Positions 1,025 to 62,943 of a stretch of DNA of 64,000 bases are shown here, piece after piece. The notes below the pieces were generated by a model. It ran no database searches. It had not been told where the DNA came from and worked only from the letters and a program-made list of their open reading frames with translations. Position 1 is the first letter of the stretch; every line of letters begins with the position of its first letter. The position numbers were made by a program, and so were the translations under genes. The DNA lies in contig NZ_JAMDLG010000017.1 of the NCBI RefSeq assembly GCF_023721715.1, positions 124,001 to 188,000 on the forward strand, given 5' to 3'. Origin of the DNA: Parasegetibacter sp. NRK P23 (GTDB taxonomy: Bacteria > Bacteroidota > Bacteroidia > Chitinophagales > Chitinophagaceae).

Positions 1025-1081
1025 AAAACTGTTGGATTTTCCTCTCTTCATCAAAATCTAACTTCCAAAATTCTACATTTC

Positions 1082-2239: not shown

Positions 2240-2256
2240 GTTTCATGCAAAGGCTA

Positions 2257-2536
2257 TGTTTTTCACGCGAAGACGCAAAGGAGCAAGGACGCAAGGAGCG
2301 GTTGAGGTGCTGGAGGAGAAGTGTTTTTTCTCGCAGCAACCAACGTAGAGGAAAGCCTATTCATCCACTCCTCTAACAACAGCCCGTAGCGTCGCCGCGC
2401 CGTTGCGAGAAATAAATAATTATCCTCCATCAGCAACCCGCCAAACAAACAAGGCCTTGCGTCCTTACTCCTTTGCGTTGCGAAGTGCGTAGCACGAAGC
2501 AATTGCGTGAAACGAATCACGAAGCAATTGCGTGAA
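2257..2536. repeat. Intergenic repeat element with inverted CGCAAAGGAG arms and a 19-bp direct repeat
   Basis: The left part (2257-2297) is a TTTTTCACGC-start tract built of CGCAAAG-like units. The right part (2453-2482) carries nearly the same unit inverted: GACGCAAAGGAGCAAGGACG on the left against AACGCAAAGGAGTAAGGACG on the right, about 150 bp apart. The right end also has a 19-bp direct repeat, CACGAAGCAATTGCGTGAA, at 2493-2511 and 2518-2536. The related 17-mer TCACGCAATTGCTTCGT recurs at 30174 and a related tract at 40791. No credible coding frame lies inside. Confidence 0.6.
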
Positions 2537-2801
2537 CAGCCCTCTTTCTTGAATTTCCACCCTAATACCTTAATTTCACCCCAACATCATTCTCCTCCTT
2601 CCCGAAAGGGCAAAAAAAAGCAGGTAGTAGAAACTACCCGCGGTCACATGAGAAAACTAATATTCGGCCTTTCAGCCGAACAGTTACAAAAGTACAGGCT
2701 TGGTTGCTTTATACAATGTTAAAATGACCAAACCCGTAAAATATTGTACTGAACGGCAAAATTAATCCACCACGGGTTGAAATGCCGGTTTCGTGTGACC
2801 A
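2537..2801. other. Gap before the histidine kinase with three small hairpins
   Basis: No gene is supported here. Three short stem-loops follow one another: CCC-GAAA-GGG at 2601-2610, GGTAGT-agaa-ACTACC at 2623-2638 and TTCGGC-ctttca-GCCGAA at 2663-2680. An A-rich run at 2612-2619 lies between the first two. They could form a structured 5' leader for the two-component genes or mark the end of the upstream transcript. I could not assign them to a known RNA family. Confidence 0.35.
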
Positions 2802-3845
2802 ATGCCAGGAACATCAAAACATATCGGCCCCCTGTTGGGCAAGGTGATCAGTATCCCCTTGCTGGGGCTGCTTATTCCCAATATTTCCGGGCTTATTCAC
2901 AACCGGCTTTATCCCTGGCCCGAGTTGCTTATCAGTTACGGCTGCTTCTTTCTTACCTCTTATTCCATCTGGAGAGGCAATGAGGTGATCCATATTCGTA
3001 TCCGGCGCTGGCTCCGGAGGATGCCCTCGATGGTGAACCGCATCATCGTGATGTTTATCGCCAATATCATTTATTCGGCGCTGGTGGCACTGCTGCTGCT
3101 CGGATTCTGGCAATACGAACTGAGCAGGGAAGGCAAAAGCAGTGACGCGCTCGCCATCGCGGTACTGCTTTCCACGAATGTGGCCGTCATCATTGCGAGT
3201 ATATACGAAATTGTGTACCTGAACGTGGAGCGGGAATCCGACCAGTTGATGATGGCCCGGCTCGATAAAGAGAAGATCGCCACCGAACTGTCTATCCTCA
3301 AAAGCCAGATCGATCCGCATTTCGTATTCAACTCCCTGAATACTTTATCGATGCTGATTGAACAGGACCCGGTGGCGGCCCGGCAGTTCAACGATAACCT
3401 GGCGCGGGTGTACCGCTATATTCTCGGCCACAAAAGCAGGAACCTCGTGCCATTACGGGAAGAAGTGGAGTTTGTGAAAAATTATTTCCACCTCCTCAAA
3501 CTCCGTTTCCGCGAAGGCATTGAGTTACATCTTTATATGGACGACCAGGATGCGAAGGGTTACATGATTCCACCTATATCGCTGCAATCGCTGGTGGAGA
3601 ACGCCATCAAACACAACGCGTTCAGTTCCGAAACACCGTTAAAGATTGATGTGCATTGCTCCAACCACCACCTGGAGATACGCAACAATATCCAGGAAAA
3701 AGCATACGCCGCGCCCGGTTCCGGAACCGGCCTGCAAAACCTGAACAGCCGGTACGTATTGCTTACCCGCAGTACCATACAGGTGTTCAGCAACAACAAC
3801 GAATTTCTTGTACGATTGCCCTTAATAAAAGCTTACGCATGTTAA
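2802..3845 (+). CDS. LytS-type sensor histidine kinase
   Basis: 347 residues. Four hydrophobic segments (about 14-33, 38-57, 82-103 and 117-140) are followed by a His_kinase domain (PF06580 type). The phospho-acceptor histidine is H173 in SQIDPHFVFNSLN, the N box is SLVENAIKHN near residue 265, and a short GSGTGLQNLNSRY glycine box completes the ATP site. This is the Bacteroidota membrane kinase class that pairs with LytTR response regulators. The stop codon overlaps the next start, so kinase and regulator are coupled. There is no periplasmic sensor domain, so the signal is probably sensed within or near the membrane. The ATG has no clear ribosome binding site. Confidence 0.92.
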   Translation: MPGTSKHIGPLLGKVISIPLLGLLIPNISGLIHNRLYPWPELLISYGCFFLTSYSIWRGNEVIHIRIRRWLRRMPSMVNRIIVMFIANIIYSALVALLLLGFWQYELSREGKSSDALAIAVLLSTNVAVIIASIYEIVYLNVERESDQLMMARLDKEKIATELSILKSQIDPHFVFNSLNTLSMLIEQDPVAARQFNDNLARVYRYILGHKSRNLVPLREEVEFVKNYFHLLKLRFREGIELHLYMDDQDAKGYMIPPISLQSLVENAIKHNAFSSETPLKIDVHCSNHHLEIRNNIQEKAYAAPGSGTGLQNLNSRYVLLTRSTIQVFSNNNEFLVRLPLIKAYAC

Positions 3846-13873: not shown

Positions 13874-15184
13874 TCAGAATTTATATTGTACACGCACGGT
13901 GAACACATTGTCTTCGATGTCTTCCGTATAACCGGGTAATGCGGTTTCTTCGTTCTTCACCATATCGTACCAGGTGGTCACCTTAAAGTGATCATTCAGG
14001 TAATACACATAACCCATGCCCAATGTATTGTAGCGGACATCGGCTTCCGAGAGGTTCATGCCGGGTTTTATTTCCATCCCTTTCACGTGAATGTTGGGAT
14101 CGTACCAATCATATTTCATCACGAACTGGTGCTTGTTGTTCACGATGTTCTGTAAATAATAGAAGAAGCCGCCGTTGAAATCACGGATATAACGCGGAAG
14201 TGCAGCCTCCGTTTGAGATGGGAAACTTACCGTGGTGAGTTCGCTGCCGGGCTGTGTGCCCTGCCAGTATTCGGCCCTGAACTCCGACAAACCGAAGCTG
14301 TTCTTTATTTTCAACTGCGCGTCGGCACTGTAATACTGTCGGCGGGAATATTCACCAATATTCGTTAAACTGGAATCCACGGCCATTGTCGGTTCTCCCA
14401 GCCTGTTCTTCGCATGTTCGTATACGTATTTTGAAAACTGTTGCGTACCGCCATGGTAATAGGATACACTTCCCGACAAATTCACTTTGTGCACCAGCTT
14501 TACAGGGCGCATACTCACCCTTGCGATCATGTCTTTTCTGCTGTCGAAATCCGCTCTTCCCGGGAGGCCCTGTCCATTGAATAAGCCGAGGTCTATCTTT
14601 AAGGGACGAAGTTTATGGCTATTGCGTTGTGGTTCGAATGACAACATCGCACCGAGATCGCGTTCCGTTTGCAACAATATCTGCGACATCCGCCCCCGTT
14701 CCGGCGCTTCGCGCACCACCGACGACCAGTTGATCTCGTAACCGAAAGGTCTGGCGAAAACACCTGTAGTGAGGGAAAACACATTGAATTTATTCTCATA
14801 CACCTTTCCCCAGAAATCACGGATATTGACCCCGCGCTCCGTTCCATCAAACTGGAACACGAAAAACACGCGGGGCAGATTTTCTTCACTCAGCAAAAGA
14901 TAATCTAGCCTGATCCTGCCCCTCCGCATCATGAACCTGCTATTGCTGGCGGGCTGAAAGTCGCCGCCATTATAGGTTTTGGTGCCATCATTTTTGGTAA
15001 GCTGGAACTGTGTTTGCATGTACCCGGAAAACCTGACGTTGCCGAACTTCTGCAACAGCGGCCTGAGCGTATCCATCACAAACAGGGAGGAATCGATCTG
15101 TGTAAGTGTATTCTGCGCAAATATGCCTGCGGATAACCCCAGACCAATCAATAGCAGGTACAGTCGCGTACGGAACGGCGTCAT
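13874..15184 (-). CDS. Phosphate-selective porin O/P-like outer-membrane protein
   Basis: 436 residues with a signal peptide ending SAGIFAQ. The barrel begins with FGNVRFSGYMQTQFQL and SRFMMRRGRIRLDY, then FVFQFDGTERGVNIRDFWGKVYENKFNVFSLTTGVFARPFGYE, matching the OprO/OprP porin family (PF07396 type). It ends VFTVRVQYKF, a normal barrel-terminating aromatic. The family forms anion or general solute channels; in Bacteroidota it is widespread and phosphate selectivity is not established. The stop codon touches the lacI-family stop from the other strand, so the transcripts converge without a terminator. Confidence 0.85.
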   Translation of the reverse strand: MTPFRTRLYLLLIGLGLSAGIFAQNTLTQIDSSLFVMDTLRPLLQKFGNVRFSGYMQTQFQLTKNDGTKTYNGGDFQPASNSRFMMRRGRIRLDYLLLSEENLPRVFFVFQFDGTERGVNIRDFWGKVYENKFNVFSLTTGVFARPFGYEINWSSVVREAPERGRMSQILLQTERDLGAMLSFEPQRNSHKLRPLKIDLGLFNGQGLPGRADFDSRKDMIARVSMRPVKLVHKVNLSGSVSYYHGGTQQFSKYVYEHAKNRLGEPTMAVDSSLTNIGEYSRRQYYSADAQLKIKNSFGLSEFRAEYWQGTQPGSELTTVSFPSQTEAALPRYIRDFNGGFFYYLQNIVNNKHQFVMKYDWYDPNIHVKGMEIKPGMNLSEADVRYNTLGMGYVYYLNDHFKVTTWYDMVKNEETALPGYTEDIEDNVFTVRVQYKF

Positions 15185-15224
15185 AACAATATCGAGATTG
15201 GTTCAAGCCTGCAAATATAGGCCA

Positions 15225-16628
15225 TTATCCGAGGCCGAACACCTGGTGCATTTCAGGTATCTCCACGTCCCAGAAGCCTTTGCGCAGGAGTCGCTCCTTA
15301 AAGTCTTCCTGCACGGGCAATTCACCGTGTACCAGGAAAATTTTCTTTACCTGGCGCGGGTCCTGGCGGGCGATGAACTGGCAAAGGTCCTCATAATCGC
15401 CGTGGGCGCTTAAACTGCGGATAGAACCTATCTCCGCGTGTACTTCGTGTTGTATGCCGAAAATGCCCACTTCTTTCTGCCCTGCCATCAGCCTGCCGCC
15501 CAGGGAGCGCGGCTCACAGTAACCCACCATCAGAATCGCGTTCCGGCTGTTTTCAATATTGTTAGAGATATGGTGTTTCACCCTGCCCGCTTCCGCCATA
15601 CCGCTCGCCGAGATGATCACACAAGGCTCGTTGCGGAAGTTAAGCAGTTTGGATTCGTCTACAGACTTCACATAACGCAGTCCTTTGAAACGGAACGGAT
15701 CATCATCGCTTTCCAGTATTTTCTGGATGGTTTTGTTGAAGTATTTCGGATGCCTTTTTACGAGTTCGGTGGCTTCAATACTCAATGGACTGTCCACAAA
15801 ATAATCGAGGTCGGGCAGCCTTCGTTCCAGTTCAAGCTGGTTCAGCGCGAAAAGCAGTTCCTGCGTACGTCCCACACTGAAAGAGGGGATAATGAGTTTA
15901 CCTTTTTTCCGGATACATGTTTTTTCGATCCATTCCAGGAGCAGGTCGGGCGTGGCTTCGTGGAGGTCGTGCAAACTATTGCCGTAAGTGGATTCGAGGA
16001 GGAGGAAATCCGTTTGGGGAAAATCTTCGGGGGAACGAAGGATCACGTCCCTGTACCGGCCCACGTCTCCGCTGAAGGTGAGCCGTGTTTCCTGTCCGTT
16101 TTCCCTGATCTTCAGGTGAACGGCCGCGCTGCCGATGATGTGGCCGGCATCGGTAAAAAGAACGTCTACATCTTCATCAATGGAGAACCAGCCGCCGTAT
16201 TCCCTTTGTTCGAACAACAACATCGCGGCGGCGGCATCTTCTTTGGTGTACAGTGGCCTGAGGTAGGGCTGCCCTTCTGATGCGCGCTTCTTGTTCGCAT
16301 ACTTCACATCATCTTCCTGTATCTGGGCGGAATCTTCCAGGAGAATACCGCACAGGTCGCGGGTGGCGGGGGTACAGTAAATCTTTCCTTTAAACCCTTC
16401 TTTCACCAGTTTTGGGATCAGCCCGCTGTGGTCTATGTGCGCATGGGACAAAACGAGTATGTCCACTTTTTCCGCGTCAAAACCGAAGCTGCGGTTCAAT
16501 ACATCTGTTTGTTTGCCCATGCCCTGGAACATGCCGCAATCGAGGAGTATTTGTTTGCCGTTGGCCAGTGTAAGGAGGTGTTTGCTACCTGTAACTGTTC
16601 TTGCGGCGCCGTGGAATGCTATTTTCAT
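15225..16628 (-). CDS. MBL-fold beta-CASP RNA-processing exonuclease
   Basis: 467 residues. The metallo-beta-lactamase motif HAHIDHSG starts at H62 and is preceded by LLDCGMFQG. FTDAGHIIGSAAVHL supplies the third metal-ligand motif, FSGDVGR the fourth. The beta-CASP insert and C-terminus contain SFSVGRTQELLFALN, SASGMAEAGRVKHH and the C-terminal LSAHGDYEDL plus FLVHGE, as in mRNA 3'-end processing factor/Ysh1-like hydrolases. It probably acts as a cytoplasmic ribonuclease that binds two zinc ions. It ends 40 bases before the porin start region on the same strand. Confidence 0.9.
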   Translation of the reverse strand: MKIAFHGAARTVTGSKHLLTLANGKQILLDCGMFQGMGKQTDVLNRSFGFDAEKVDILVLSHAHIDHSGLIPKLVKEGFKGKIYCTPATRDLCGILLEDSAQIQEDDVKYANKKRASEGQPYLRPLYTKEDAAAAMLLFEQREYGGWFSIDEDVDVLFTDAGHIIGSAAVHLKIRENGQETRLTFSGDVGRYRDVILRSPEDFPQTDFLLLESTYGNSLHDLHEATPDLLLEWIEKTCIRKKGKLIIPSFSVGRTQELLFALNQLELERRLPDLDYFVDSPLSIEATELVKRHPKYFNKTIQKILESDDDPFRFKGLRYVKSVDESKLLNFRNEPCVIISASGMAEAGRVKHHISNNIENSRNAILMVGYCEPRSLGGRLMAGQKEVGIFGIQHEVHAEIGSIRSLSAHGDYEDLCQFIARQDPRQVKKIFLVHGELPVQEDFKERLLRKGFWDVEIPEMHQVFGLG

Positions 16629-16698
16629 GATTTTATTTTTTGGAGGGATGGATTGATTGGTTATAGTTCTCTTGATTTGTAGAAACGCCTCACCCCAA

Positions 16699-16720
16699 CC
16701 CCTCTCCGGCCGGAGAGGGG
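16699..16720. repeat. 22-bp perfect palindrome (CCCCTCTCCGG mirrored)
   Basis: An 11-base arm, CCCCTCTCCGG, is followed directly by its exact reverse complement. It lies between the beta-CASP and DUF4442 genes and could act as a terminator or be a dispersed palindromic repeat; the surrounding CACCCCAACCCCTCTCC word is common in bacterial intergenic repeats. Confidence 0.55.
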
Positions 16721-16765
16721 CAGGAACAACACGAGAGGATTCGTTTATTCGAGTATTGATAGCTG

Positions 16766-17245
16766 TTATGTTTGTGTTTTTTGTTTGAAGGACCAGGTGA
16801 AATGGAATACGGCCACGGTTTCGCCTGCTGTGTTTTTCCCGGTAGCGGTGGCGGTAAATTGGGTGCTTTCTCCGGAGGAACAGGCCAATTCCACCGCTTG
16901 CGCTATTTCATGGCCATCTGTACATTCAAAAAAAGTGTGGCTGATGGCCTTTTTAAAATATTCGGCTTCCATTTTCACCACGAGCATGGAAACTGCTGGC
17001 TTTCTTCCAAATATGGCATTCATGGCCAGCAATCCGGTGCTCATTTCAGCCGCCATGGCAAGACAGGCAAAATAAGTAGACCGGAATGGGTTGGTGGAGA
17101 ACCATTTGTAAGGAACCGAAACGTTTGCCCTTTCCCCATCGAAATAACGCACACGCACACCTGCAAAATAGGCCGATGGCAATTTTGTGACCAGGAAGAG
17201 CCGCAGCTTGAGCGGGTTCGCAACAATATCACGGAAAGATGACAT
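16766..17245 (-). CDS. DUF4442 hotdog-fold thioesterase-like protein
   Basis: 159 residues from the ATG at 17243-17245 (a TTG two codons upstream is open but weaker). VRVRYFDGERANVSVPYKWFSTNPFRSTYFACLAMAAEMSTGLLAM resembles the DUF4442 group of the hotdog superfamily, which includes acyl-CoA thioesterases. NPFRSTYFA is the region where the catalytic or substrate-contact residues usually lie. The protein has no signal peptide and should be cytoplasmic. The gene follows the protease gene by 25 bases on the same strand. Function is inferred from fold only. Confidence 0.75.
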   Translation of the reverse strand: MSSFRDIVANPLKLRLFLVTKLPSAYFAGVRVRYFDGERANVSVPYKWFSTNPFRSTYFACLAMAAEMSTGLLAMNAIFGRKPAVSMLVVKMEAEYFKKAISHTFFECTDGHEIAQAVELACSSGESTQFTATATGKNTAGETVAVFHFTWSFKQKTQT

Positions 17246-17270
17246 AGGCAACCGTTATTTTATAAGTGAA

Positions 17271-18869
17271 CTAGTTGTTCTTCCCAATCTGCACCAAACA
17301 GCCCATTGCGCCATCCGCAGCGTTGGAACGCAATGCTACCATTCCGTTTGAAGTGGTGGAAACGGTTGCGCTTCCGGCATTCACCGAACGGAGCGCGGAA
17401 TTCAGTTTCGCCGCATAGTCGCCGGATGCATTGTTGAGTTGCGCATTAAACGCGAACTGATCAATGGGTTCTTTGCTGACCACCACAGCCATAAAATCGC
17501 GCGTACCCAGACTATCTGCCATCAATGACTGGTTCTTCGGAAACAACCGGTATCCCGTGATGCCACAATAAGGTGTATGCTTCGATTGTTTGGGATCGTC
17601 TTCAGAAGGATAGGGAAACAGGATATAACCTGAGCCATCCGTTTCCTGCCCGAAAACATAAATATAACAGGGAACATTGTTCTTCACTTCAATTTTAAAA
17701 CGTGTTCCCGCTTCAATGTTACGGGTAGTCTCCAGGCCATTTCCTCCCGTTGACCTCAACGCGATGTATGATTTATCTTCATTTTTCACCAAACCCACCG
17801 ACACTTCAAGCGGCGTTCGCTGTATTGTTTCCGTGGCGGGCATGGTATTCACCCCATAAGCTTCCCGCACGAACCGTTTAAAATCGCCGTACCGCACCCA
17901 TGCGGTGCCGTTGTTGCCCCATTCCGGCCCCCAGCTGTTGTAGAGCAGGAAAGCGCCGCCGTATTTACGGTCGTCATAACCCACCACACACATGGCGTGA
18001 CCACCGAAGCCCATCATGGATTCATCTCCCGGAGCAGGCTCCCAGAGGGCTTGCCCCATCATGGGTTGCATGAAACTTTGTCCCACCATCATGCCGATCA
18101 CAACCGGGGCATCCGTGGACAAGTGTTCCTTAATACTTCTGATCGAAATGTCCCGGGTACTTTCAGTGGCCGTAAGCCGGTTGAAGCCGTGCATCCGGTA
18201 CTGCGCCGCTTCCTGTACGAGGGATGGCGGCGGCTGGCGGGTACAATTGTTTTCATCGTAAGGGAAAGCGTCGTAAGGAACAGCGCCCTTTCCCTGCATA
18301 TATTCCATGGCACGGATGATGTAGGAACCCTGGCAACCTTCCAGTCCGATCTGGTTGTAAAGGAATGCCGGAGAGAAAGCGATGTTATCGGGATTTTCAC
18401 CGGTGCGGGCAGCTTCCAGGATGGTGCGGGCCGCATAAGCGCTGCTCCAGGCCACACAACTGCCCTGTGCGCCCTGGTTTTGTGCCGAGGGTGCAAAACG
18501 CAGCAGGGATACGGCTTCCGGCAGGGGATTCTTGCCCTGGTCATCTTCCAGTCCTTCATACACTTCGGCTTTCGCGAACTGCTTTGGATCGAGTACGCCA
18601 CCCGTGGCCAGCTTAGACAACTGATCGAACATGCCGCTGCCGGTAGCGCAACCGCCACCACGACCCATCAGGAAATACGCGCCTATTCCGATCACGAGCA
18701 GGAAGAGGATGCCTTTGCCGCGAAAAAGACCCAACAAAAGCGGCAATAGATTGAATAGGCCTCCGCCGCCGGAGAAGCCGCCACCACCGCGGGAACCACC
18801 GCCGCCGGAATCGTTGTTGTCGTTGTATTCGTTAGGATCCTGGGGATCATCTACCATTCGGATGGGCAT
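17271..18869 (-). CDS. Membrane-anchored papain-like (C1) cysteine protease with DUF4384-like tail
   Basis: 532 residues. An acidic, Asn-rich opening is followed by a glycine-rich linker (about 21-37), one membrane segment (about 53-68, GILFLLVIGIGAYFLM), then the protease domain. The C1 triad is visible: C138 in GAQGSCVAWSS, H291 in GFGGHAMCVVGYDD and N311 in LYNSWGPEWGNNG. From about residue 380, VKNNVPCYIYVFGQ and GYILFPYPSEDD resemble a DUF4384 domain. The family degrades peptides, but a membrane-tethered form with this tail suggests a specialised envelope role. No propeptide motif of the cathepsin type is obvious. It lacks a cleavable signal peptide. Confidence 0.85.
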   Translation of the reverse strand: MPIRMVDDPQDPNEYNDNNDSGGGGSRGGGGFSGGGGLFNLLPLLLGLFRGKGILFLLVIGIGAYFLMGRGGGCATGSGMFDQLSKLATGGVLDPKQFAKAEVYEGLEDDQGKNPLPEAVSLLRFAPSAQNQGAQGSCVAWSSAYAARTILEAARTGENPDNIAFSPAFLYNQIGLEGCQGSYIIRAMEYMQGKGAVPYDAFPYDENNCTRQPPPSLVQEAAQYRMHGFNRLTATESTRDISIRSIKEHLSTDAPVVIGMMVGQSFMQPMMGQALWEPAPGDESMMGFGGHAMCVVGYDDRKYGGAFLLYNSWGPEWGNNGTAWVRYGDFKRFVREAYGVNTMPATETIQRTPLEVSVGLVKNEDKSYIALRSTGGNGLETTRNIEAGTRFKIEVKNNVPCYIYVFGQETDGSGYILFPYPSEDDPKQSKHTPYCGITGYRLFPKNQSLMADSLGTRDFMAVVVSKEPIDQFAFNAQLNNASGDYAAKLNSALRSVNAGSATVSTTSNGMVALRSNAADGAMGCLVQIGKNN

Positions 18870-53000: not shown

Positions 53001-56000
53001 GTGACCCAACCACTACCCACACCCGTTCGTAGAGTGGCTATGCCTTTCTCTTTATTCCTTTCCGGAATATTTCTGTTTTTTTTCACCTCAAATACTATGG
53101 CCCAATCGCCGGGGCAGATCATCCGTCCGGTCGGAGGCGCCGGGGTTACCGTGCTCAACCCGAATGGTGATGCTTACAGTTCCGCTACGGTAACCGGTTT
53201 CACCACAAGTGACATTACGCAAAGTGAGATCGCTTTCAAAGTAGTCCCCCCCGCAGTTGTTGAGCCTACAGGCGATGTAGCCACAGGGCCCAATGGCGGC
53301 TTTACGGATATCGTAAAAACATTCGACGGAAGCGGCTTCTATATATATACTGATGGCACGAACCTCATGTTCAGGCTCCGCATCGGAAACGTGATCAGCG
53401 GTTCCAAAGGATACAGTATCCTGGTGGATACCGATGGCAAAATCGGGAATACCGGTCCTTATGCCGATCCGAATTATGTTGCAGGCACCAATACTTCAAG
53501 CGGGAACCCCGGTTTTGAATATGAAGTGGTGCTGGAAACAAACTTTCGGGTAGCCGTTTACCATGTGGACGGTTCAGCTTCCCCAGGCGCTCCCGTGGCC
53601 ACTTATCCCCTCAATACACATTCACAGATATCTCGCGCGCTTACGACCGATGGCAATACACCGGACTATTTTTACGACTGGTATGTTCCCTTAACCGCTA
53701 TCGGCAACCCTGCGTCGTTCAGACTGGTGGCCACCACCGTTACTTCGCCTTCCTCTGCACTCCAGGGAAGCCGTTCCGATATTTACGGGATAGATGATGC
53801 CGCCAACGCGAATGTTTCAGCTGCCTGGCAATCCGTTACCAACGCGCAACCAACCATTACCGTTTCCGGCTTCAATGGTGTAAGCGCTGTATGCACCGCG
53901 GCACCTGTTTTGTCAAGCCCCATAGCCACGGGCAGCAATATCTCCGTAACAGGCACCTGGAGCAGGATGGATGCTACTAAACCCGGTTCAGCCACCATCA
54001 CGCTCTACAAAAACGGAAGTTCCGTGGGCACTACAGCGGTAAACAGCGGAAATACCTGGAGCATAAGCGTGTCCAGCATTGCAAACGGAGATGTGTTTTA
54101 CGCCAGGGCGCAGGCCAGTGGAGAAACGCAATGCCTGCAATCCAATAATGTTACGGCTTCGGGTTGTATTACGCCACCGGCCTCTCCAGTACTTTCCTGT
54201 GGATCTTTGAAAGGAATTTCAGGCACCATGCCTTCTACCGCATCGGGCAATACCGTTGCAGTATACCTCGTGCCCACCACTTCGTCTTCTCCTACGTCAA
54301 ATATGGTAAGTAACGGTACGAACCTTACTTACCCTTCCACTACAAGCTTCGCTTATTATACCAACGGATGCTCCGGCGGCACCAACTATGTTGCCACTGG
54401 CGTTTATATGATCGTTACCAACAATGGCAGCTGCAGCTCCTCTCCGGTATTCGTTTGTATCAATAGTGGCAGCAGCGGCACACCTTCACCATTAGCCACC
54501 AATGCACTCAGCATAACACAGCCCGTTTATGCCTCCCATACTTCCATATCAGGAACCGGCGCCGCAACCGGAGATGTACTGCGTTTGTTCATTAACGGAC
54601 AATACAAACAGAGCATTACAACCACCGGTACCGGGTTTACGTTCTCAGGCCTAGCTCTGCAAACCGGCGATCAATTAAAGTTATATTCTCAAACCGGATC
54701 GTCTTGCATGACCCAGTCGGCTACCTTTACCGTAAGTTGTTTCAGCCAGCCGCCATCCATTACCACCAATGCTACCGGCAACCTGCTTCATGGTGCCACC
54801 ACCATTTCCGGCACCTCTGCCTACCCCGGTGCAAGCGTACAAGTGTACAAAGGTACCAGTCCGTCCGGAACGGCCACAGGTTCCGCGGTTACTGTGAACA
54901 GTAGCGGAGCATGGAGCGTTTCAGTTCCAGCCATGACCAACGGCGAAACCTATTATGCGCAACAAACAATCAGCGGATGCACCAGCTCGGCATCTTCCCC
55001 AGCTACCGTATTAACACCCGCCAGCTGTCCTACAATTACAGGGAGCTACACCGGCAGCAGTACCAGTGTTTCAGGCACCATGCCTTCCTCCTTTACCGGT
55101 ATCATAAGGCTGTACCAGGATGGAGCACAGATTGGTTCAGTGAGCATTAGCGGCAGCAGTTGGAACATTACACTTTCCGCCAATACTTTATATTACAACG
55201 GGGTATTGCATGCCACCGCACAAGCCAGTGGTGGAGCGGAAAGCAATGGATGCGGTACCGTCACAGTGGGTTGCAGTGCACCTGCAACACCATCCATTAC
55301 GCCCGGAAGCGCCATCATTACCGAAGGACAAGACTTGCTGTTGAACATCAGCAATGTATCATCGAACAACTGGTATGCTCTAATGGATAATACCGGCGCG
55401 AGTTTCGCCACTTCCATGTATACTACCACCAGCAGTAACTTTTCACTTACTTCCAATACATTTACAACGGCAGGCACCTACAACCTCTATCTGAGCGCTG
55501 ATGCCCTTACCGGTTGCCCCAACAGTTCAACCCCACTTACCGTAACCGTAAACAGCGCCACACTTCCCGTGAAATTCGTGAGCGTAGCAGCGAAGCGTAA
55601 CGGAGAAAGCGCCGTTATCAGCTGGAAAGTTGCGGAAGAACAGCAGGTGGCGCATTATGAAGTGCAACAGTCCACCGACTGTAACCGCTTCGAAACAATA
55701 GGCACCGTGGCTTTCAACGCCGGTTTAAATGGCAATTACCAGTTCACGCCTTCCTCGCTCCCGGAAGCTGAAAAAGTATGCTTCCGCATTAAACAAGTGG
55801 ATAAAAGCGGAACATTCATGTACAGCGCGGTATTTCCCCTGAACAACGCGGATGTATTGCGCTGGCAGGTAACACCGAACCCGGTTCAAACCGTAGCGAA
55901 GCTCTCTGTTTCAGTTCCGGCCCACAAAACGGGGACCATTTATGTGATGGATATGCACGGGAAAACAATGTTCTCCAGGAAATGCACCTTCACAAAGGGG

Positions 56001-56108
56001 CAGAGCAATATCGCGTTGCCGGAAGTGGGCCAGCTGGCCCAGGGCACCTACCTGGTATGCCTTTCCATTGAAAATACAGTTGAATTCAGGAAAATCATCA
56101 AGCAGTAA
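53001..56108 (+). CDS. Large secreted T9SS type A sorting-domain protein with repeats
   Basis: 1035 residues from a GTG at 53001; the ATG at 53040 gives a shorter but equally good signal peptide ending TMAQ. An N-terminal beta-rich region (about 35-300) with FDGSGFYIYTDGTNLMFRLRIGN and FEYEVVLE is followed by at least three similar Ig-like repeats recognisable by the motif SWSISV/GETYYAQ...SG near residues 351, 636 and 718. The C-terminal T9SS sorting domain (about 950-1035) has WQVTPNPVQTVAKLSV, GTIYVMDMHGKTM and LAQGTYLVCLSI. It is likely a cell-surface or released adhesive protein. Thr, Ser and Gly are abundant. No enzyme motif is seen. Confidence 0.85.
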   Translation: MTQPLPTPVRRVAMPFSLFLSGIFLFFFTSNTMAQSPGQIIRPVGGAGVTVLNPNGDAYSSATVTGFTTSDITQSEIAFKVVPPAVVEPTGDVATGPNGGFTDIVKTFDGSGFYIYTDGTNLMFRLRIGNVISGSKGYSILVDTDGKIGNTGPYADPNYVAGTNTSSGNPGFEYEVVLETNFRVAVYHVDGSASPGAPVATYPLNTHSQISRALTTDGNTPDYFYDWYVPLTAIGNPASFRLVATTVTSPSSALQGSRSDIYGIDDAANANVSAAWQSVTNAQPTITVSGFNGVSAVCTAAPVLSSPIATGSNISVTGTWSRMDATKPGSATITLYKNGSSVGTTAVNSGNTWSISVSSIANGDVFYARAQASGETQCLQSNNVTASGCITPPASPVLSCGSLKGISGTMPSTASGNTVAVYLVPTTSSSPTSNMVSNGTNLTYPSTTSFAYYTNGCSGGTNYVATGVYMIVTNNGSCSSSPVFVCINSGSSGTPSPLATNALSITQPVYASHTSISGTGAATGDVLRLFINGQYKQSITTTGTGFTFSGLALQTGDQLKLYSQTGSSCMTQSATFTVSCFSQPPSITTNATGNLLHGATTISGTSAYPGASVQVYKGTSPSGTATGSAVTVNSSGAWSVSVPAMTNGETYYAQQTISGCTSSASSPATVLTPASCPTITGSYTGSSTSVSGTMPSSFTGIIRLYQDGAQIGSVSISGSSWNITLSANTLYYNGVLHATAQASGGAESNGCGTVTVGCSAPATPSITPGSAIITEGQDLLLNISNVSSNNWYALMDNTGASFATSMYTTTSSNFSLTSNTFTTAGTYNLYLSADALTGCPNSSTPLTVTVNSATLPVKFVSVAAKRNGESAVISWKVAEEQQVAHYEVQQSTDCNRFETIGTVAFNAGLNGNYQFTPSSLPEAEKVCFRIKQVDKSGTFMYSAVFPLNNADVLRWQVTPNPVQTVAKLSVSVPAHKTGTIYVMDMHGKTMFSRKCTFTKGQSNIALPEVGQLAQGTYLVCLSIENTVEFRKIIKQ

Positions 56109-56184: not shown

Positions 56185-57321
56185 ATGCTGAAGTTAAATT
56201 TAAAATGGTCCCTGCTGGTAGCGGTATCCTGTTCCGCCATCGCCTGTGTAATGTCCGGCTTTTCGGAGCAGGACCCGATTAAATCGGAGAAACTTACGTT
56301 CAACATGGAGATCATTGAAACCGGCATCAATGTACCCTGGGGAATGGAGTTCCTGCCGAACGGTGATATCCTGGTAACGGAGAAATCCGGGCAGATCAAA
56401 GTGATCAGGAACGGAAAAGTGCAGGAGCAGGAGATCACCGGCGTACCGAAAGTGTATGCCCGTGGACAGGGCGGGTTATTCGACCTGCAACTGCATCCGA
56501 AATACGCGGAGAACGGCTGGATATATATTTCCTATTCCGCGCCCAACCCCGACGGAAACGGCGGCATGACACATATTATGCGGGCGAAACTGAAAGGCAA
56601 TGCGCTCACCGATCAGGAAGTACTCTTCAAAGGTTCGCCGTACACCACTTCAGGCGTTCACTTCGGAGGAAGAATGGAATTTGGCAAAGATGGCTACCTG
56701 TATTTCTCTATCGGGGAAAGAGGGGAAAAAGAAAAAGCCCAGTCGCTGGAAACCTATAATGGAAAAGTGTACCGGATAAAAGACGATGGTACCATTCCCA
56801 CCGATAATCCTTTTTACAATACACCCGGGGCCATCAAAGCCATCTACTCTTACGGACACCGGAACCCACAGGGCTTAAGGCTGCACCCGCAAACCGGAGA
56901 ACTCTGGGAAACGGAACATGGTCCCATGGGTGGAGATGAACTGAACATTGTGCGGAAGGGAAAAAATTACGGGTGGCCGAAAGTAACTTTCGGGATCGAT
57001 TACAACGGAGCAATCATTTCAAAAGACACCACGCTCCCGGGTATAGAAGCGCCCGTTTTCTATTGGAAACCATCCATCGCCACCAGCAACCTCGTTTTCG
57101 TGACCGGCAACAAATATCCTTCCTGGAAAGGAAACGTATTGGTGTGCGGCATGGTATTACAAAGACTGGAAAGGCTGGAGCTTAACGGCAACAAAGTAAC
57201 GCACCGGGAAATACTGCTGGACAAGATAGGAAGGGTGCGCAATGTAGAGCAGGGCCCCGATGGGTTTATTTATGTATCCGTAGAAGGAGGAAAAATTATT
57301 AAGATTGTACCCGCTGCCTGA
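56185..57321 (+). CDS. PQQ-dependent sugar dehydrogenase (glucose/sorbosone type)
   Basis: 378 residues with an N-terminal signal that is lipoprotein-like (SAIACVMSG). The beta-propeller signature includes VPWGMEFLPNGDILVTEKSGQIKVI, GQGGLFDLQLHPKYAENGWIYISYS, GRMEFGKDGYLYFSIGERG, YSYGHRNPQGLRLHPQTGELWETEHGPMGGDELN and NYGWP, the soluble PQQ sugar dehydrogenase/Hhip-like fold. The H in GHRNPQG is the usual catalytic residue. It would oxidise aldose sugars in the periplasm. A cytochrome c gene follows 26 bases later and is a likely electron acceptor. PQQ genes are not in this window. Confidence 0.9.
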   Translation: MLKLNLKWSLLVAVSCSAIACVMSGFSEQDPIKSEKLTFNMEIIETGINVPWGMEFLPNGDILVTEKSGQIKVIRNGKVQEQEITGVPKVYARGQGGLFDLQLHPKYAENGWIYISYSAPNPDGNGGMTHIMRAKLKGNALTDQEVLFKGSPYTTSGVHFGGRMEFGKDGYLYFSIGERGEKEKAQSLETYNGKVYRIKDDGTIPTDNPFYNTPGAIKAIYSYGHRNPQGLRLHPQTGELWETEHGPMGGDELNIVRKGKNYGWPKVTFGIDYNGAIISKDTTLPGIEAPVFYWKPSIATSNLVFVTGNKYPSWKGNVLVCGMVLQRLERLELNGNKVTHREILLDKIGRVRNVEQGPDGFIYVSVEGGKIIKIVPAA

Positions 57322-57347
57322 AGAGGGCCGGACACCATATCAGAGAC

Positions 57348-57755
57348 ATGAAACAAAAAAAGATAGCAGCAGTGTTGGTAAGCTGTTTGCCGCTCCTCGC
57401 ATTTCTTCCAAACCAGGATAAAGAACTGGAAAAAAGTAAGGCAAGAGGGAAAGCATTGTATGAAGAACTGTGCATCACCTGCCACCTGGGTAACGGCAAA
57501 GGCACACCAGGAGCCATTCCTCCGCTTGCCGGTGCGGATTATATATTGAAGAATCCGAACAACGCTATATACGCGGCGAAATATGGTTTGAGCGGCGCCA
57601 TTACCGTGAACGGGCAGAAATACAGTACAGCGATGCCTAACCCGGGTATCAGCAATGAGGAAGTCGCGGATGTCACGAATTACATCCTCAACAGTTGGGG
57701 AAACAAAGGGAAGATGGTTACGGTGAAACAAGTGGAGGGCGTGAAGAAAAAATAA
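57348..57755 (+). CDS. Class I cytochrome c
   Basis: 135 residues. A signal peptide (KIAAVLVSCLPLLAFLP) is followed by one heme c motif, CITCH at about residues 42-46, with GNGKGTPGAIPPLAGADY typical of the axial region and a distal methionine in STAMPNPGISNEEVADVTNYIL. The protein is small and periplasmic, with a lysine-rich tail. It shares a transcript with the PQQ dehydrogenase and probably receives electrons from it. Confidence 0.92.
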   Translation: MKQKKIAAVLVSCLPLLAFLPNQDKELEKSKARGKALYEELCITCHLGNGKGTPGAIPPLAGADYILKNPNNAIYAAKYGLSGAITVNGQKYSTAMPNPGISNEEVADVTNYILNSWGNKGKMVTVKQVEGVKKK

Positions 57756-57848: not shown

Positions 57849-60800
57849 CTAGTACAAGGGGATATTCAATGTAGACATAGTAGTTCTGGTAGTGCTGTCA
57901 TTACTGATTTTTGCATACAGCCGGTATTTTGATGGCGCGTGCGGTATGGTGAGCCGGAGCTGTGCGCCGTTCCCAACCGGAGCCATGCTCAGGTAAGTGC
58001 CATACCCATCTGTTTTGATGAGGTACCATTCGATTTTAAAAGACCGGACCGAATCGGGTATAAACCGCCAGTCCTGCTGCTTTTCGTTACGGGACAAAAG
58101 GTTGTACGTAAGCACTTCTTTTTCCAGCACCACCTTAGCAGGTTTGAGGATTTTTATTTCAGGAAGAACAGCTTTGGCCGGCATTGAACCGGGGCGCCAG
58201 TATTTCACCATGGAATCATAACTCTCCTTTCTGTTACCATTCAGGTCCATCACACCATCCAATTCCAGGTGGTTGTTGCTTTGCATATCCTGCCAGGCTG
58301 GAAGAACCAGCGGCGAATGATTCTTTTTTTCTAATACACCCCACCAGTTTGCCGGAACACTACCCCACACCGCCCTATCGGGAAGCGACGCATTGAGTGC
58401 CGTCTTATTCATGCTGTCCGCAGTTAAGAGAAAAACATCCGCAGAAGGTACATGCCTTTTTAACATTTTCAAACGCGACTCTCCTCTTTCATCCCAACGC
58501 ACATCTATACATACGGGCCTGGCGGTATCAACTTCGTGGATGAGGTGGCAAAGCTTTTCCAGCCAGCCGAGGTATTGGGTGCGCAAAGCAAAGCCTCCAG
58601 GAGCCGGATAACGTTGTTCTATCGCCTCAAGCATATCTCCGCTGATATTCCAGGCGATGATATTCTTTTCACTACCCAGTTTTTTAACCAATTGAATGAT
58701 CCTTTCTTTCTCCCTCTTTAAAGCTTTTTCATCGTTCAGACCGGCTATATCAAAATACGGCCATAACCTCGATACCAACATCATGCCGGATGCTTGCGTT
58801 ACCCGCATCATATTCTGGTCGTATATACCTGGCATGGAACGGAACACCGTGTTGATACCGGCTTTTTTCATTTCCCAGAAATCCTTTTCCAAAGCCTTTC
58901 TGCTGGGTTCGTGCTTATTCCTGAACCAATGAAACCCTTTGTCGTAAACAACACCCCGGAGGGAATCCGGAAGATGGCGCTTCTTCCATACGACAAAACT
59001 GCCGGTTGCTTTCAAACCACTTTTTACCAACAACGTTTGATCGACGCCTGAGTGCAATTTATCTTTCCAGTGCTGCTGCAACGAATCCGCCTGCAGGGAA
59101 GTTCCTTCATCAGATTCTACAAAAGCCCCCATCACTTCAGGAAACTTTTTCTGTATTGTTTCAATGGCGGTATTCCACCAGGCAAAATTGAAACCGCCAT
59201 CTGAATGGAAAGGAGCCCTGAACATAATTGGCACTCCCGCATGAAATACAGGCAGTTCGTGCCACTTCTTGTAAAGCACATCAAAAGAAGGTACGGTCGT
59301 TGCTCCCGGAATAGAATCTGGAATACTCATGTTTACCATCAGCCAGTCAACGAACCTTCTTCCGGGATATACTTCGGGTAAAACCGAAGCATCCTCAACA
59401 TCCCACACCCATACAAATTGACTAGCCCCGGCGTTTTCAAAAATACCGTGTATCCGTTCCCATATCTTTCTGAACAAAAACCGTGAAGTACCTTCTTCCA
59501 AGCCCAATGACAAACTAATGAATACCGGATGATCCACTTTTGCCAGCGCTTCCGCTGACGCCATCCACGCAGTATCGTATGCGCCATTCGCCAACTGGTA
59601 TAATTCCTCCTTATTCTTAACACTAAACGTACACCTTATAAATGGGATGGCCCCTTTCGACACAATACGTTTCATCTCCGGCAATAGTTCCCTTTCATCC
59701 AATTGGCGCACATGGAATGCAAGCATACTTGTAAGGCCGCTCACTTTTCCATGCTCAATACCATTGTCCACCCTTCCCCAATAAAACCTATCAAACTTGT
59801 ACTGTACTCCGGATGATTCACCGAATGATGGTTCCGCATCGCCCGACAAGTATCCCCATACAGCAACTCCCAGTACCATCAGGGCGCAGATGACCGCATA
59901 TTTTCTCATAAAAGCGTACACCCCGTGGCGCCATTTCCAAAAACCCATTTTTACCTTTCTCGTGCGGGAAGGCACCCCATCCCAATTACGTTGCTGATTT
60001 TTTGAAATCAGCAATACCACCACCATGATACATACGTTCACCAGCGCCAACGCCGCCATAAACAATGAATAGGGATTGAGGTCGTAATCGAGTCCCAGCA
60101 CGATGGCCACCAAAGACGCAGTGATCACAAAAAGGTTAGGAAGGTTCAGCGCAAGGGGCGTATGATCGTTCCCGTGCTTGGGTGTTGGGATATAAGGAAC
60201 TTTTTTCCGGATCAGGGTATAATACATCCCCAGGAGGTGTATCCACCAAGTGCCGATCTGCAGAAAGCCCCCCACCACATGGATGCCCCGTTCGGTTTCT
60301 TCGGCTACCCAGTGCTGCACATAATGCCTGATCAGCAGGATCATGGTGAATAAAGGAAAGCCGGCCAGCGCAAACTCGGCGATATCTATATCAAGGGGCA
60401 TCGCGCCTGTCAGCAAACTTAAAATGGGGATAAGAAAATTGAGCAGGAATATAAGTCCACCGGCATAATGAAACGGCAAAGTGAAATAATGGAGCCGCTG
60501 CCGCCACGTGAAATGTTTGAATAACCGCGGAAAGGCCGTCACCAGCAATTCGAAAGTACCCCTCGACCATTTCAGCTGTTGTTTGTAATACGCGGAGAGT
60601 GTGGAGGGCACGAGCCCGCGTGAAAGCACTGCCGGAAGATAAGTTGATCTCCATCCTTTGGCGTGAAGTTGCATGGCCGTGTGCATGTCTTCCGCAAGAC
60701 CAGCGGCATGTCCGCCAATGGAGTCAAGCGCGGAGCGCCGGAAGGTACAATTCGCGCCGATGGCCTGCACCGTACCATAAGTGTTCATGCACATCATCAT

Positions 60801-61472
60801 CGGGCCGTAAAACTGGTAGGTTTGCTGAGCTGCACCTTTGGCCACAAGACTTTCCGGGTGGTTGTAATAAGCCTGTACCACCTGCACAAAGCCAATACCG
60901 GGATCATCAAAAAAAGGCACAACGGCTTTCAGGAAGCCCGGGGCCGGCACATGGTCGGGATCCAGCACAACACACAATTCCCCATGGGCAAGTTTTAACG
61001 CGTTGTTGATGTTGCCCGCCTTCGCGTCCTTTTTATCTGTCCTGGTTACATGTCTAACGCCTAATTCCAGGCATATGCTCCGCACGAATGGGTCGTCCGC
61101 CTCATCGCAACACCACACCACCGAAGACGGATATTCCATTTCCACTGCCGCCTGAAGTGTTTGCCGCAGCATATCGTATGGTTCTCCGGCACAAAAAGTA
61201 GTGAATACATCAACCGTGTACGACTTGTCGGTATGCCTTGGCGAAGGCGCCGATAGGGAAAAATAATGGTACCATTCGTGCAGGGCCTTCAAACAGAAAT
61301 AGGACAGGGTAATCATTAGAAGCAGGTAAAGCAGGAAATTGTCCCTTTCTGAGGCTACGGCTATCGCATGAATGAAAAAGCAAAGCGCTATTACGCCCAT
61401 TACAATGAGCACACGGAGCTTTATGAGCTCTTTCCGCGATGGTCCGCCAACAAAACTTTCCTTTACTTTCAT
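57849..61472 (-). CDS. GT2 membrane polysaccharide synthase fused to two glycosidase-like TIM-barrel domains
   Basis: 1207 residues. Two N-terminal membrane helices (about 18-40, 45-63) precede a cytosolic GT2 domain with DPD (171-173), AED (260-262) and QQLKW (298-302, in place of QxxRW), the cellulose-synthase-like set. Further helices lie at about 335-356, 366-384, 400-421, 445-460, 467-489 and 524-541. From 560 to about 800 follows a domain like family GH26, with VDHPVFIS, IFENAGASQFVWVWDVED and YPGRRFVDW. From about 835 to 1095 follows a GH2/GH5-like barrel, and the last 100 residues form a beta-module. Both barrels lack the expected glutamates. The start overlaps the upstream GH gene by 4 bases. 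It probably exports a beta-glycan; no PilZ domain is visible. Confidence 0.85.
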   Translation of the reverse strand: MKVKESFVGGPSRKELIKLRVLIVMGVIALCFFIHAIAVASERDNFLLYLLLMITLSYFCLKALHEWYHYFSLSAPSPRHTDKSYTVDVFTTFCAGEPYDMLRQTLQAAVEMEYPSSVVWCCDEADDPFVRSICLELGVRHVTRTDKKDAKAGNINNALKLAHGELCVVLDPDHVPAPGFLKAVVPFFDDPGIGFVQVVQAYYNHPESLVAKGAAQQTYQFYGPMMMCMNTYGTVQAIGANCTFRRSALDSIGGHAAGLAEDMHTAMQLHAKGWRSTYLPAVLSRGLVPSTLSAYYKQQLKWSRGTFELLVTAFPRLFKHFTWRQRLHYFTLPFHYAGGLIFLLNFLIPILSLLTGAMPLDIDIAEFALAGFPLFTMILLIRHYVQHWVAEETERGIHVVGGFLQIGTWWIHLLGMYYTLIRKKVPYIPTPKHGNDHTPLALNLPNLFVITASLVAIVLGLDYDLNPYSLFMAALALVNVCIMVVVLLISKNQQRNWDGVPSRTRKVKMGFWKWRHGVYAFMRKYAVICALMVLGVAVWGYLSGDAEPSFGESSGVQYKFDRFYWGRVDNGIEHGKVSGLTSMLAFHVRQLDERELLPEMKRIVSKGAIPFIRCTFSVKNKEELYQLANGAYDTAWMASAEALAKVDHPVFISLSLGLEEGTSRFLFRKIWERIHGIFENAGASQFVWVWDVEDASVLPEVYPGRRFVDWLMVNMSIPDSIPGATTVPSFDVLYKKWHELPVFHAGVPIMFRAPFHSDGGFNFAWWNTAIETIQKKFPEVMGAFVESDEGTSLQADSLQQHWKDKLHSGVDQTLLVKSGLKATGSFVVWKKRHLPDSLRGVVYDKGFHWFRNKHEPSRKALEKDFWEMKKAGINTVFRSMPGIYDQNMMRVTQASGMMLVSRLWPYFDIAGLNDEKALKREKERIIQLVKKLGSEKNIIAWNISGDMLEAIEQRYPAPGGFALRTQYLGWLEKLCHLIHEVDTARPVCIDVRWDERGESRLKMLKRHVPSADVFLLTADSMNKTALNASLPDRAVWGSVPANWWGVLEKKNHSPLVLPAWQDMQSNNHLELDGVMDLNGNRKESYDSMVKYWRPGSMPAKAVLPEIKILKPAKVVLEKEVLTYNLLSRNEKQQDWRFIPDSVRSFKIEWYLIKTDGYGTYLSMAPVGNGAQLRLTIPHAPSKYRLYAKISNDSTTRTTMSTLNIPLY

Positions 61473-62785
61473 TCTCCTACTACATAAAATGGGGTATTGG
61501 CCGTAGCGGCATACCCATTATTATTTTTAACGGTAACAAATATGCGATAAGGGCCTTCCTGCCGCGGGGCCTTAAAAACCACCTCGGCACTTGTACTATC
61601 CATCCATAAATTTGTTTCGGGTAGTGGTTTGATCCACTTACCGGTGTACTGCCCCCACCAGTCGTCGCGTATGATTTCCCAGGCATAACTTACCGATCCT
61701 TTAGTGTTGTTCATCAAAATTTCAGCGGCGTGTATGGTTCCCGGCGCGAATAACAACTGATCCCTGGCGCCTTTCTTATCGACCAGCATATATTTAATAT
61801 CTGGTGAAACGTGTGTTGTTATAGTATCGTTCCAGCAATCCTTCAGGGCTTCTACTGTTTCGACAGGCTCTCCATTGTAGGTGAAAAAACTGAACCAGGT
61901 ATGGGTATATTCCTGCTTGTTGCCCCAGAAAAAAACCAGCGATCCGAGAAAGCGGGGATCATCATGCGGTATGGCCGTTTTATACAGTTCACGCAACTGT
62001 TCAGCGTTTTTAGTACTGGTGTTTTCGATGGAAGATTGCCATTGGGTAGTTTCTGATTCCCATCCACCGGGCACGCCCCATTCGGTGAGCAGAAAGGGGC
62101 CATCCCAGAACCAGTTGAAAGAACGGAGGTCCTCTTTCAACTGGTTCATCCGTCCAAAAGTATTGATGGAGATAAAGTCAAGTCCATTGATCCTGGCCTG
62201 AATATTAATGATTTCCCGTTTTTCGAAATTAGCGAGTGGCGTGGTAACAGGGTGATTCGGATCTTCCCGTTTAATCAGACGCAACATTTTATTGTAGGCA
62301 TCGTAAAAAGGAATATGCCGCACATGGAAGGGAAACCTGAGTTCATTGCCGAGGCACCAGACCAGCAGGGCGGGGTGGTTTTTGTATTTTTTCACACACA
62401 CTTCAAGGCTGTTCATCAACGCATTCACCTTAGCGGTATCCTTATAAAAAGTGGATGCCTGGTGGCTTCCCGGCAGGTCAAAACCAGCCACCACCGCCAA
62501 ACCCAGGCTATCGGCCTTATCCAGGATTTCTCCCAGGTTGGTGGTATCCCAGGTTCTTATCGTATTTCCACCAATCCCTGCCAGTTCCCCGAGATAAGTA
62601 TAACCCGCCCCTCCCTTCACCAGGAAGGGTTGCCCATTCCTGTATAGCATCCAGCGACCGTCTACCTTTTTTAATTCAACCGCTTTTCCCTCTGTTTGTC
62701 GGGTCGCGTTGTTGTTATCCCCCGGACTACAAGTACACAGGAAACAGGTCAAAAAAAACATACAGATTGGTTCCAGGATGCGCAT
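61469..62785 (-). CDS. Lipoprotein glycoside hydrolase (GH2/GH5-type TIM barrel) partner of the synthase
   Basis: 438 residues from the ATG at 62783-62785 (an upstream TTG adds eight residues). A lipoprotein signal ends FLCTCSPGD. The TIM barrel has TIRTWDTTNLGEILDKADSLGLAVVAGFDLPG, the acid/base glutamate in LLVWCLGNELRFPF and the nucleophile in PFLLTEWGVPGG. A C-terminal beta-module (about 330-438) with the EGPYRIFVTVKNNNGYAATANTPFYV strand pattern resembles the C-terminus of the synthase. The stop ATGA overlaps the synthase start, so the two are coupled. It is likely exported to the outer membrane or periplasm to trim or release the polymer. Confidence 0.85.
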   Translation of the reverse strand: MRILEPICMFFLTCFLCTCSPGDNNNATRQTEGKAVELKKVDGRWMLYRNGQPFLVKGGAGYTYLGELAGIGGNTIRTWDTTNLGEILDKADSLGLAVVAGFDLPGSHQASTFYKDTAKVNALMNSLEVCVKKYKNHPALLVWCLGNELRFPFHVRHIPFYDAYNKMLRLIKREDPNHPVTTPLANFEKREIINIQARINGLDFISINTFGRMNQLKEDLRSFNWFWDGPFLLTEWGVPGGWESETTQWQSSIENTSTKNAEQLRELYKTAIPHDDPRFLGSLVFFWGNKQEYTHTWFSFFTYNGEPVETVEALKDCWNDTITTHVSPDIKYMLVDKKGARDQLLFAPGTIHAAEILMNNTKGSVSYAWEIIRDDWWGQYTGKWIKPLPETNLWMDSTSAEVVFKAPRQEGPYRIFVTVKNNNGYAATANTPFYVVGE

Positions 62786-62943
62786 ACATTTGATTTTCAA
62801 CACTTTCAAAGGATGCTGGTTCTACCGAGGCTGGGGCTAAGGTAGGGAACAACGCCTGAAAAACGTCGTTTCTTTTCGCATAATTCTCCTGGTTCTACAC
62901 AAAATTCTATTTCGCAATACCCTACCCTGGTTATCTTCGTAAG

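Follow-up and report, generated by a model that had tools for sequence, protein, structure and literature searches.

The 64,000-nucleotide stretch of Parasegetibacter sp. NRK P23 DNA analysed here (contig NZ_JAMDLG010000017.1, positions 124,001 to 188,000; hereafter the window) carries on its minus strand a gene for a 1207-residue protein in which a BcsA-like family 2 glycosyltransferase (GT2) is followed by a seventh membrane helix, then by a lichenase-type (CtLic26A) GH26 barrel and lastly by a GH158-like barrel with a β-sandwich. Neither of the two fused glycoside hydrolase (GH) units retains its catalytic Glu pair, while a gene directly upstream encodes a separate GH158 protein in which both Glu residues are intact. 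On balance we consider the fusion protein to be, rather more probably than otherwise, a processive BcsA-like β-glucan synthase with its own periplasmic glycan-handling arm, working with the free GH158 enzyme.

Integrity of the fusion gene and assignment of its domains

The reading frame runs from ATG to stop without interruption or frameshift, and full-length homologues exist; these two observations rule out an annotation join or frameshift, as a preliminary description of the window, which did not give the strand, had already argued. A scan of named genomes gave 79 loci, which record titles or lineages place without exception in Bacteroidota. Because most of these match over the full length, at 32-44% identity, the fusion architecture is not a product of chance. 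The genome from which the window comes has one copy each of the fusion gene and the GH158 gene. Pfam and NCBIfam searches with the window protein alone gave no match past residue ~390, and the assignment of the C-terminal half to GH families rests on profiles built from 56-60 relatives together with AlphaFold2 models. These checks, of the kind the preliminary description had proposed, returned a GT2 match and two GH-fold models outside the membrane. The domain borders given there were nearly right; searches and models place them at the GT2 domain and at residues 552-832 and 830-1207.

The GT2 domain and membrane topology

BcsA structures match about residues 73-376 in phmmer searches (E = 1e-36 to 1e-34), and GT2 models in Pfam and NCBIfam span residues ~51-384 (PF13641, 94 bits; PF13632, 85.8 bits), in keeping with the BcsA-like membrane glycosyltransferase described earlier. 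The domain has the D, DxD, TED and Q(Q/R)xRW motifs and the channel helices of a BcsA-like synthase. The DPD, AED and QQLKW motifs lie exactly where they had been reported and are invariant across five relatives, with Lys replacing Arg in the last of them. Against the UDP-forming cellulose synthase model TIGR03030 (CelA) the protein scores 166.7 bits, well below the cut-off of 699.1 bits, and it does not belong to that equivalog. Pfam and NCBIfam searches of the window protein found no PilZ domain, again as reported; its C-terminus is occupied by the two barrels and the sandwich.

Seven transmembrane (TM) helices are predicted, comprising TM1, TM2 and TM7 (Table 1) and further helices at about residues 340-358, 362-385, 440-458 and 471-489. 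An interface helix, additional to these seven, precedes the segment VPYIPTPK; this helix and the gating loop are presumably arranged as in BcsA, by analogy with which they were placed. The hydrophobicity of TM7 is over the threshold in 73 of 77 fused members and slightly under it in the other four, and TM7 matches the N-terminal anchor of a separate GH26 gene in the split loci described below. Mean Lys plus Arg counts across the family are 4.9, 1.9, 3.9 and 7.6 in the predicted cytosolic segments, as against 0.4-0.5 in the outer loops. The seven helices and this positive-inside charge pattern together indicate that the protein is oriented N-in, C-out, with the GH26-like and GH158-like units predicted to be periplasmic, as had been proposed; a cytoplasmic C-terminus is ruled out on the same grounds. 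The preliminary description thus survives at the two points on which it was most exposed, in that GH-like folds are predicted within residues 560-1100 and the C-terminal half is placed outside the cytoplasm.

The GH26-like barrel

Residues 552-832 (barrel 1) are modelled as a TIM barrel with a mean predicted local distance difference test score (pLDDT) of 81.5, exceeding 90 in the core and falling below 50 in the last 23 residues. The best solved match found with Foldseek is the GH26 lichenase CtLic26A (E = 1.2e-11, TM-score 0.62-0.65). A profile of the relatives, searched against the Protein Data Bank (PDB), likewise finds this Clostridium thermocellum enzyme nearest (E = 3.5e-43), with the next GH26 enzymes at ~1e-12. 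The Pfam GH26 model matches 52 of 56 family members, the window protein alone being unmatched. Fold and profile, by way of the relatives, thus uphold the GH26-like barrel of the preliminary description. The catalytic Glu pair is missing, however: in an alignment of 77 fused members, Gly657 and Ala753 stand where relatives have the acid/base and the nucleophile. The barrel in the window is accordingly predicted to be a pseudoenzyme and is not classed as an active GH26.

By a motif-based assessment, 44 of the 77 members have an intact GH26 site, 25 have a degenerate one and eight have lost it by deletion, with at least nine changes of state on the tree. This replaces a residue-only count of 48 intact sites, which was misled by lone Glu matches in eroded motifs. 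Divergence was compared between pairs at equal GT identity (71-79%). At this distance barrel 1 of the window is 25% identical to that of its nearest clade, whereas relatives with an intact site share 41-53% with one another, and constraint on barrel 1 is therefore relaxed in the window lineage.

The GH158-like unit and the partner GH158 gene

The model of residues 830-1207 has a pLDDT of 92.9. In Foldseek searches the region matches the barrel and Ig-like domain of GH158 together (E = 1.4e-14, TM-score up to 0.70), the best structural matches including BuGH158 (6pal) and GH158(Pro) (9oro), and the profile of the relatives matches 9oro with E = 6.8e-13. Alignment of the fused unit with the GH158 partners by hhalign gave 99.7% (E = 2.2e-25) and reaches through the sandwich. 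Because the GH158 matches span both parts, the barrel (barrel 2) and the β-module form one GH158-type unit. The preliminary description was right in expecting a second GH-fold barrel here; its GH2/GH5-like assignment and its separate β-module do not stand. A GH2/GH5 identity was rejected since GH158 matches better, even though 31 of 60 family members match Pfam GH2_C. A distant relative (L109) has Pfam GT2 and GH26 matches in one protein and matches GH72/GH2_C weakly, below the cut-off.

The catalytic pair, E137/E220 in BuGH158 (PMC7157763), is replaced in the fused unit by Asp946 and Ser1038. Six members, all early-branching, are the only ones to keep the site intact, and on the tree it was lost once. 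Other features of the barrel have persisted: Trp849, Asp864, Trp1060 and Asp1062 are kept in 99-100% of relatives, and at matched GT identity barrel 2 of the window is 36% identical to that of its nearest clade, compared with 28-39% among intact pairs. With no excess divergence, barrel 2 is not under relaxed constraint in the window lineage.

The partner gene lies directly upstream and overlaps the fusion gene by 4 bp. Its product matches the GH158 structure 9oro with E = 4e-63 and has the Glu pair (E156/E243). The association is widespread: 71 of 78 Bacteroidota loci have a co-directional GH158 gene as the next gene upstream, and all 78 complete partner sequences keep the pair. In most loci the partner is lipoprotein-like and has no markedly acidic run behind the Cys, or is anchored by a TM helix instead. 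No other neighbour is conserved to a like degree around the fused genes. The same six members that keep the barrel-2 site lack an adjacent, co-directional GH158 gene upstream. A statistical reading of this pattern, in which an intact barrel-2 site equals the lack of an operonic GH158 (Fisher 4.6e-9), was set aside as pseudoreplication; the value is unusable because the tree shows one change only.

Table 1. Features of the fusion gene and its partner (window coordinates; residue numbers refer to the encoded protein)
Feature	Position	Strand	Basis
Fused GT2 - GH26-like - GH158-like protein, 1207 aa, ATG start	57849..61472	-	Single frame; full-length homologues
TM1, residues 21-39	61356..61412	-	Hydropathy; N-terminus basic, cytosolic
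TM2, residues 46-64	61281..61337	-	Hydropathy
BcsA-like GT2 catalytic domain and first channel helices, residues 74-376	60345..61253	-	phmmer to BcsA structures; PF13641, PF13632
DPD motif, residues 171-173	60954..60962	-	Invariant in alignment
AED motif (TED equivalent), residues 260-262	60687..60695	-	Invariant in alignment
QQLKW motif (Q..RW equivalent), residues 298-302	60567..60581	-	Invariant in alignment
Basic cytosolic loop TM6-TM7, residues 490-519 (8 K/R; family mean 7.6)	59916..60005	-	Charge count
TM7, residues ~520-540, predicted to take the C-terminal half to the periplasm	59853..59915	-	Hydropathy; split loci
GH26 lichenase-type barrel without catalytic residues, residues 552-832	58977..59819	-	AlphaFold2; Foldseek CtLic26A; profile; Pfam in relatives
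Codon 657, Gly at position of GH26 acid/base Glu in relatives	59502..59504	-	Alignment
Codon 753, Ala at position of GH26 nucleophile Glu in relatives	59214..59216	-	Alignment
GH158-like barrel without catalytic residues, residues 830-1100	58173..58985	-	AlphaFold2; Foldseek; profile; conservation
Codon 946, Asp at expected GH158 acid/base Glu	58635..58637	-	Alignment
Codon 1038, Ser at expected GH158 nucleophile Glu	58359..58361	-	Alignment
C-terminal β-sandwich, residues 1101-1207, equivalent of GH158 Ig-like domain	57852..58172	-	Model secondary structure; Foldseek and hhalign alignments span it
Partner GH158 endo-glucanase, 446 aa, probable lipoprotein, E156 and E243 intact	61469..62809	-	PDB GH158 match; adjacency

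Distribution of the family and split loci

A fusion was scored where an open frame of more than 1000 aa matched the GH26 profile strongly. By this measure 8 of the 395 Bacteroidota genomes sampled have one, as do about 8 of 296 within the family to which the window belongs. Ten further loci are split, with a gene of ~470-640 aa of TPR/outer-membrane type followed by a GT2 gene (~535 aa) and a GH26 gene (~388 aa). The upstream gene has Pfam TPR matches in the two cases tested and may also encode an outer-membrane barrel. The free GH26 has an N-terminal membrane anchor, with HEMN in all ten loci and a clear xEFG motif in most, and is apparently active. The order of GT2 and GH26 is the same in split loci and fused protein, and the fusion corresponds to adjacent genes for a GT2 and an anchored GH26, extended by the GH158-like unit. 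The split-gene relatives, the repeated loss of the GH26 site and the intact upstream GH158 partner had all escaped the preliminary description.

A second GH26 gene, encoding a ~565-aa membrane-anchored protein with tandem GH26 domains, the first degenerate and the second intact (HEMEIP, TEFG), lies near about 20 fusion genes (L095:13004-14689 and 19 more loci); in one locus (L061) it is present as two separate frames. It adjoins the fusion gene in all eight members without a fused GH26, on either strand and in three on the opposite one. Some fusions whose GH26 is intact have it alongside too, and of 24 degenerate relatives just 6 have it nearby. A query that found positive controls in other genomes detected no homologue in the window genome. 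The idea that the tandem protein compensates for every lost fused GH26 was rejected as not general, since neither the window genome nor several Ferruginibacter relatives have it.

Several variants of the architecture were seen. Chitinophaga japonensis has two fusions in tandem (L042:9974-13660 and 15017-18865), each with its own upstream GH158 gene. Both barrels are absent from one protein (L003, genome G074, 1015-3312), a natural deletion in which the GT, the last helix and the C-terminal β-module are kept and a GH158 gene is adjacent. Three loci (L119, L122 and L129) encode shorter synthases of the same GT type (frames of 858-879 aa) with a partial GH26-profile match only; the first two also have a separate gene of ~440-450 aa on the opposite strand. 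In L127 (G224) a different GT2-type gene stands directly before a GH26 gene that encodes an N-terminal helix and an intact HEMD motif, which hints that GT2 and GH26 may have been paired on more than one occasion. A full-length relative with 45% identity (L152, G554:C147:2009-5473) contains one in-frame TAG, either a sequencing error or a mark of a pseudogene.

Converging on the 3' end of the fusion gene in the window are a glucose/sorbosone dehydrogenase gene and, after it, a small cytochrome c gene (56185-57755, + strand), a pair that is not a conserved neighbour of fusion genes. Beyond them, at 53001-56108 on the + strand, is a gene whose 1035-aa product is repetitive and secreted and has a type IX secretion sorting tail that PF18962 matches only weakly, short of the Pfam cut-off.

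Proposed function and alternative explanations

In the mechanism that we propose, the GT2 core, with its complete motifs and BcsA-like helix order, would polymerise a nucleotide sugar, probably UDP-glucose, and extrude the chain, while TM7 would set the GH26-like and GH158-like units in the periplasm. There the fused GH158-like barrel and sandwich may serve as a non-cleaving arm that binds or docks the emerging chain or the GH158 partner. Barrel 1, in advanced decay in the window, would be at most a spacer. The free GH158, its Glu pair kept, would cut or trim the chain in trans. It had been suggested that the product is held or modified as it emerges; with the catalytic Glu residues lost in both barrels here, these could not modify the chain, and holding is plausible for barrel 2 only. 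The product would be a β-glucan with β-1,3 bonds, possibly mixed β-1,3/1,4. BuGH158 is an endo-β-1,3-glucanase (PMC7157763), and GH158(Pro) has been crystallised with laminaritetraose and with mixed-linkage G4G3G (a mixed-linkage trisaccharide soak, 9p2f). Since the lichenase-type GH26 and the GH158 relatives point alike, a β-glucan, as first put forward, is a plausible product.

Several points weigh against this interpretation. The product is a guess based on the substrates of remote GH relatives, and the GT domain, at only ~24-28% identity to rhizobial GT2 synthases, is too distant for linkage to be read from it; assignment of the product from this domain was dropped for the same reason. Around the fused genes there is no conserved outer-membrane exporter. 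Finally, the pseudoenzyme state of barrel 2 arose once on the tree, and its link with an operonic GH158 is one event, not 76.

An alternative with a fair prospect, although we put it at somewhat less than even, is a mixed-linkage exopolysaccharide synthase whose fused GH26 lichenase once set the length of the chain or released it, a role since lost in the window or assumed by the GH158 partner. It is partly compatible with the synthase-and-arm mechanism above and differs in centring on mixed linkage and ancestral trimming. The GH26 profile, far nearer to lichenase than to mannanase or xylanase, favours it, as does the anchored tandem-GH26 gene, with its one intact site, next to all eight members without a fused GH26; the lack of that gene in the window genome, its presence beside some intact fusions and its scarcity among degenerate relatives do not. 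The missing exporter gives some ground for another possibility, which we regard as unlikely, that the protein makes cyclic or short periplasmic glucans like the Pseudomonas GT2-GH17 proteins (NdvB/Orphan), the GH158 partner cutting or cyclising the chain to oligosaccharides. NdvB provides a precedent (PMC10237404), the TPR/outer-membrane-type gene stands by the GT2 in the split system and no exporter is conserved near the fused genes, and the anchoring of most partners, as described above, also fits. Yet an exporter gene could lie in another part of the genome, the known activity of GH158 is hydrolysis and not cyclisation, and the fused GH26 of most members would be expected to cut 1,3/1,4 glucan.

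That the fused C-terminal half is an evolutionary residue with no role seems improbable. Barrel 1 is indeed degenerate or deleted in 33 of 77 members, through the repeated changes noted above, and the G074 gene, still beside a GH158 gene, encodes the GT and the end module but neither barrel. Barrel 2, however, persists in several orders as an open, structured domain although its active site is gone; its four near-invariant residues are retained and its rate has not risen in the window lineage. A β-mannan or other non-glucan product is very doubtful: GH26 includes many mannanases and GT2 synthases make many polymers, but among GH26 enzymes lichenase has the best E-value, by some 30 orders of magnitude, and the partner gene is a GH158.

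The fusion may, and we suggest this only tentatively, represent a new Bacteroidota class of β-glucan synthase in which fused trimming enzymes became non-cutting polymer-handling domains, once for the GH158-like unit and repeatedly for GH26, cutting having moved to or stayed in a free partner. It would then be a new source of mixed-linkage or β-1,3 glucan in the phylum. Because its members form a natural series (split genes, fused and active, one barrel dead, both dead, barrel deleted), the family lends itself to testing what each periplasmic domain contributes to chain length and release, and cultured strains of Chitinophaga, Pedobacter, Dyadobacter and Mucilaginibacter are possible makers of such glucans.

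Comparison with known systems

Glycoside hydrolases linked to synthases are well known, as PgaB (PMC5933820) and PelA (PMC12022489) illustrate. A search of the open literature, with subscription papers and CAZy outside its reach, found no report of a GT2 joined to GH26 or GH158, which is weak evidence of novelty. The closest published design is that of the Pseudomonas GT2-GH17 proteins Orphan and NdvB (PMC10237404), which also combine a BcsA-like GT2 with a periplasmic, β-glucan-active TIM barrel in one membrane protein and have no PilZ-type cyclic di-GMP motif. They carry one active GH17 barrel N-terminal to the membrane region, whereas the window fusion has no GH17 fold, its GH26 and GH158 folds being C-terminal and without catalytic Glu, and is accompanied by an overlapping, separate GH158 gene.

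BcsA, with BcsC and BcsZ, shares the GT2 core, motifs and channel helices, and the split relatives also have an accessory glucanase and a TPR/outer-membrane-type protein. The fusion differs from BcsA in having no PilZ domain, two N-terminal helices rather than four, and GH domains that are fused and of other families. BgsA of S. meliloti (PMC5567048) and RiGT2 of Romboutsia (PMC10374906) are GT2 synthases whose product is cut by lichenase; no fused GH domains appear in the parts of their reports that were consulted, and RiGT2 ends in a PilZ domain. The pSymB GT2 match, possibly BgsA, is only ~24% identical to the GT of the fusion. Among the hydrolases, CtLic26A (2bv9, 2cip) resembles barrel 1 in fold and profile and differs by the Glu pair missing in the window. 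BuGH158 (6pal) and GH158(Pro) (9oro) have the barrel and Ig-like domain seen in residues 830-1207, where the fused copy has Asp and Ser at the catalytic positions, while the upstream gene encodes a full GH158 member with both Glu residues.

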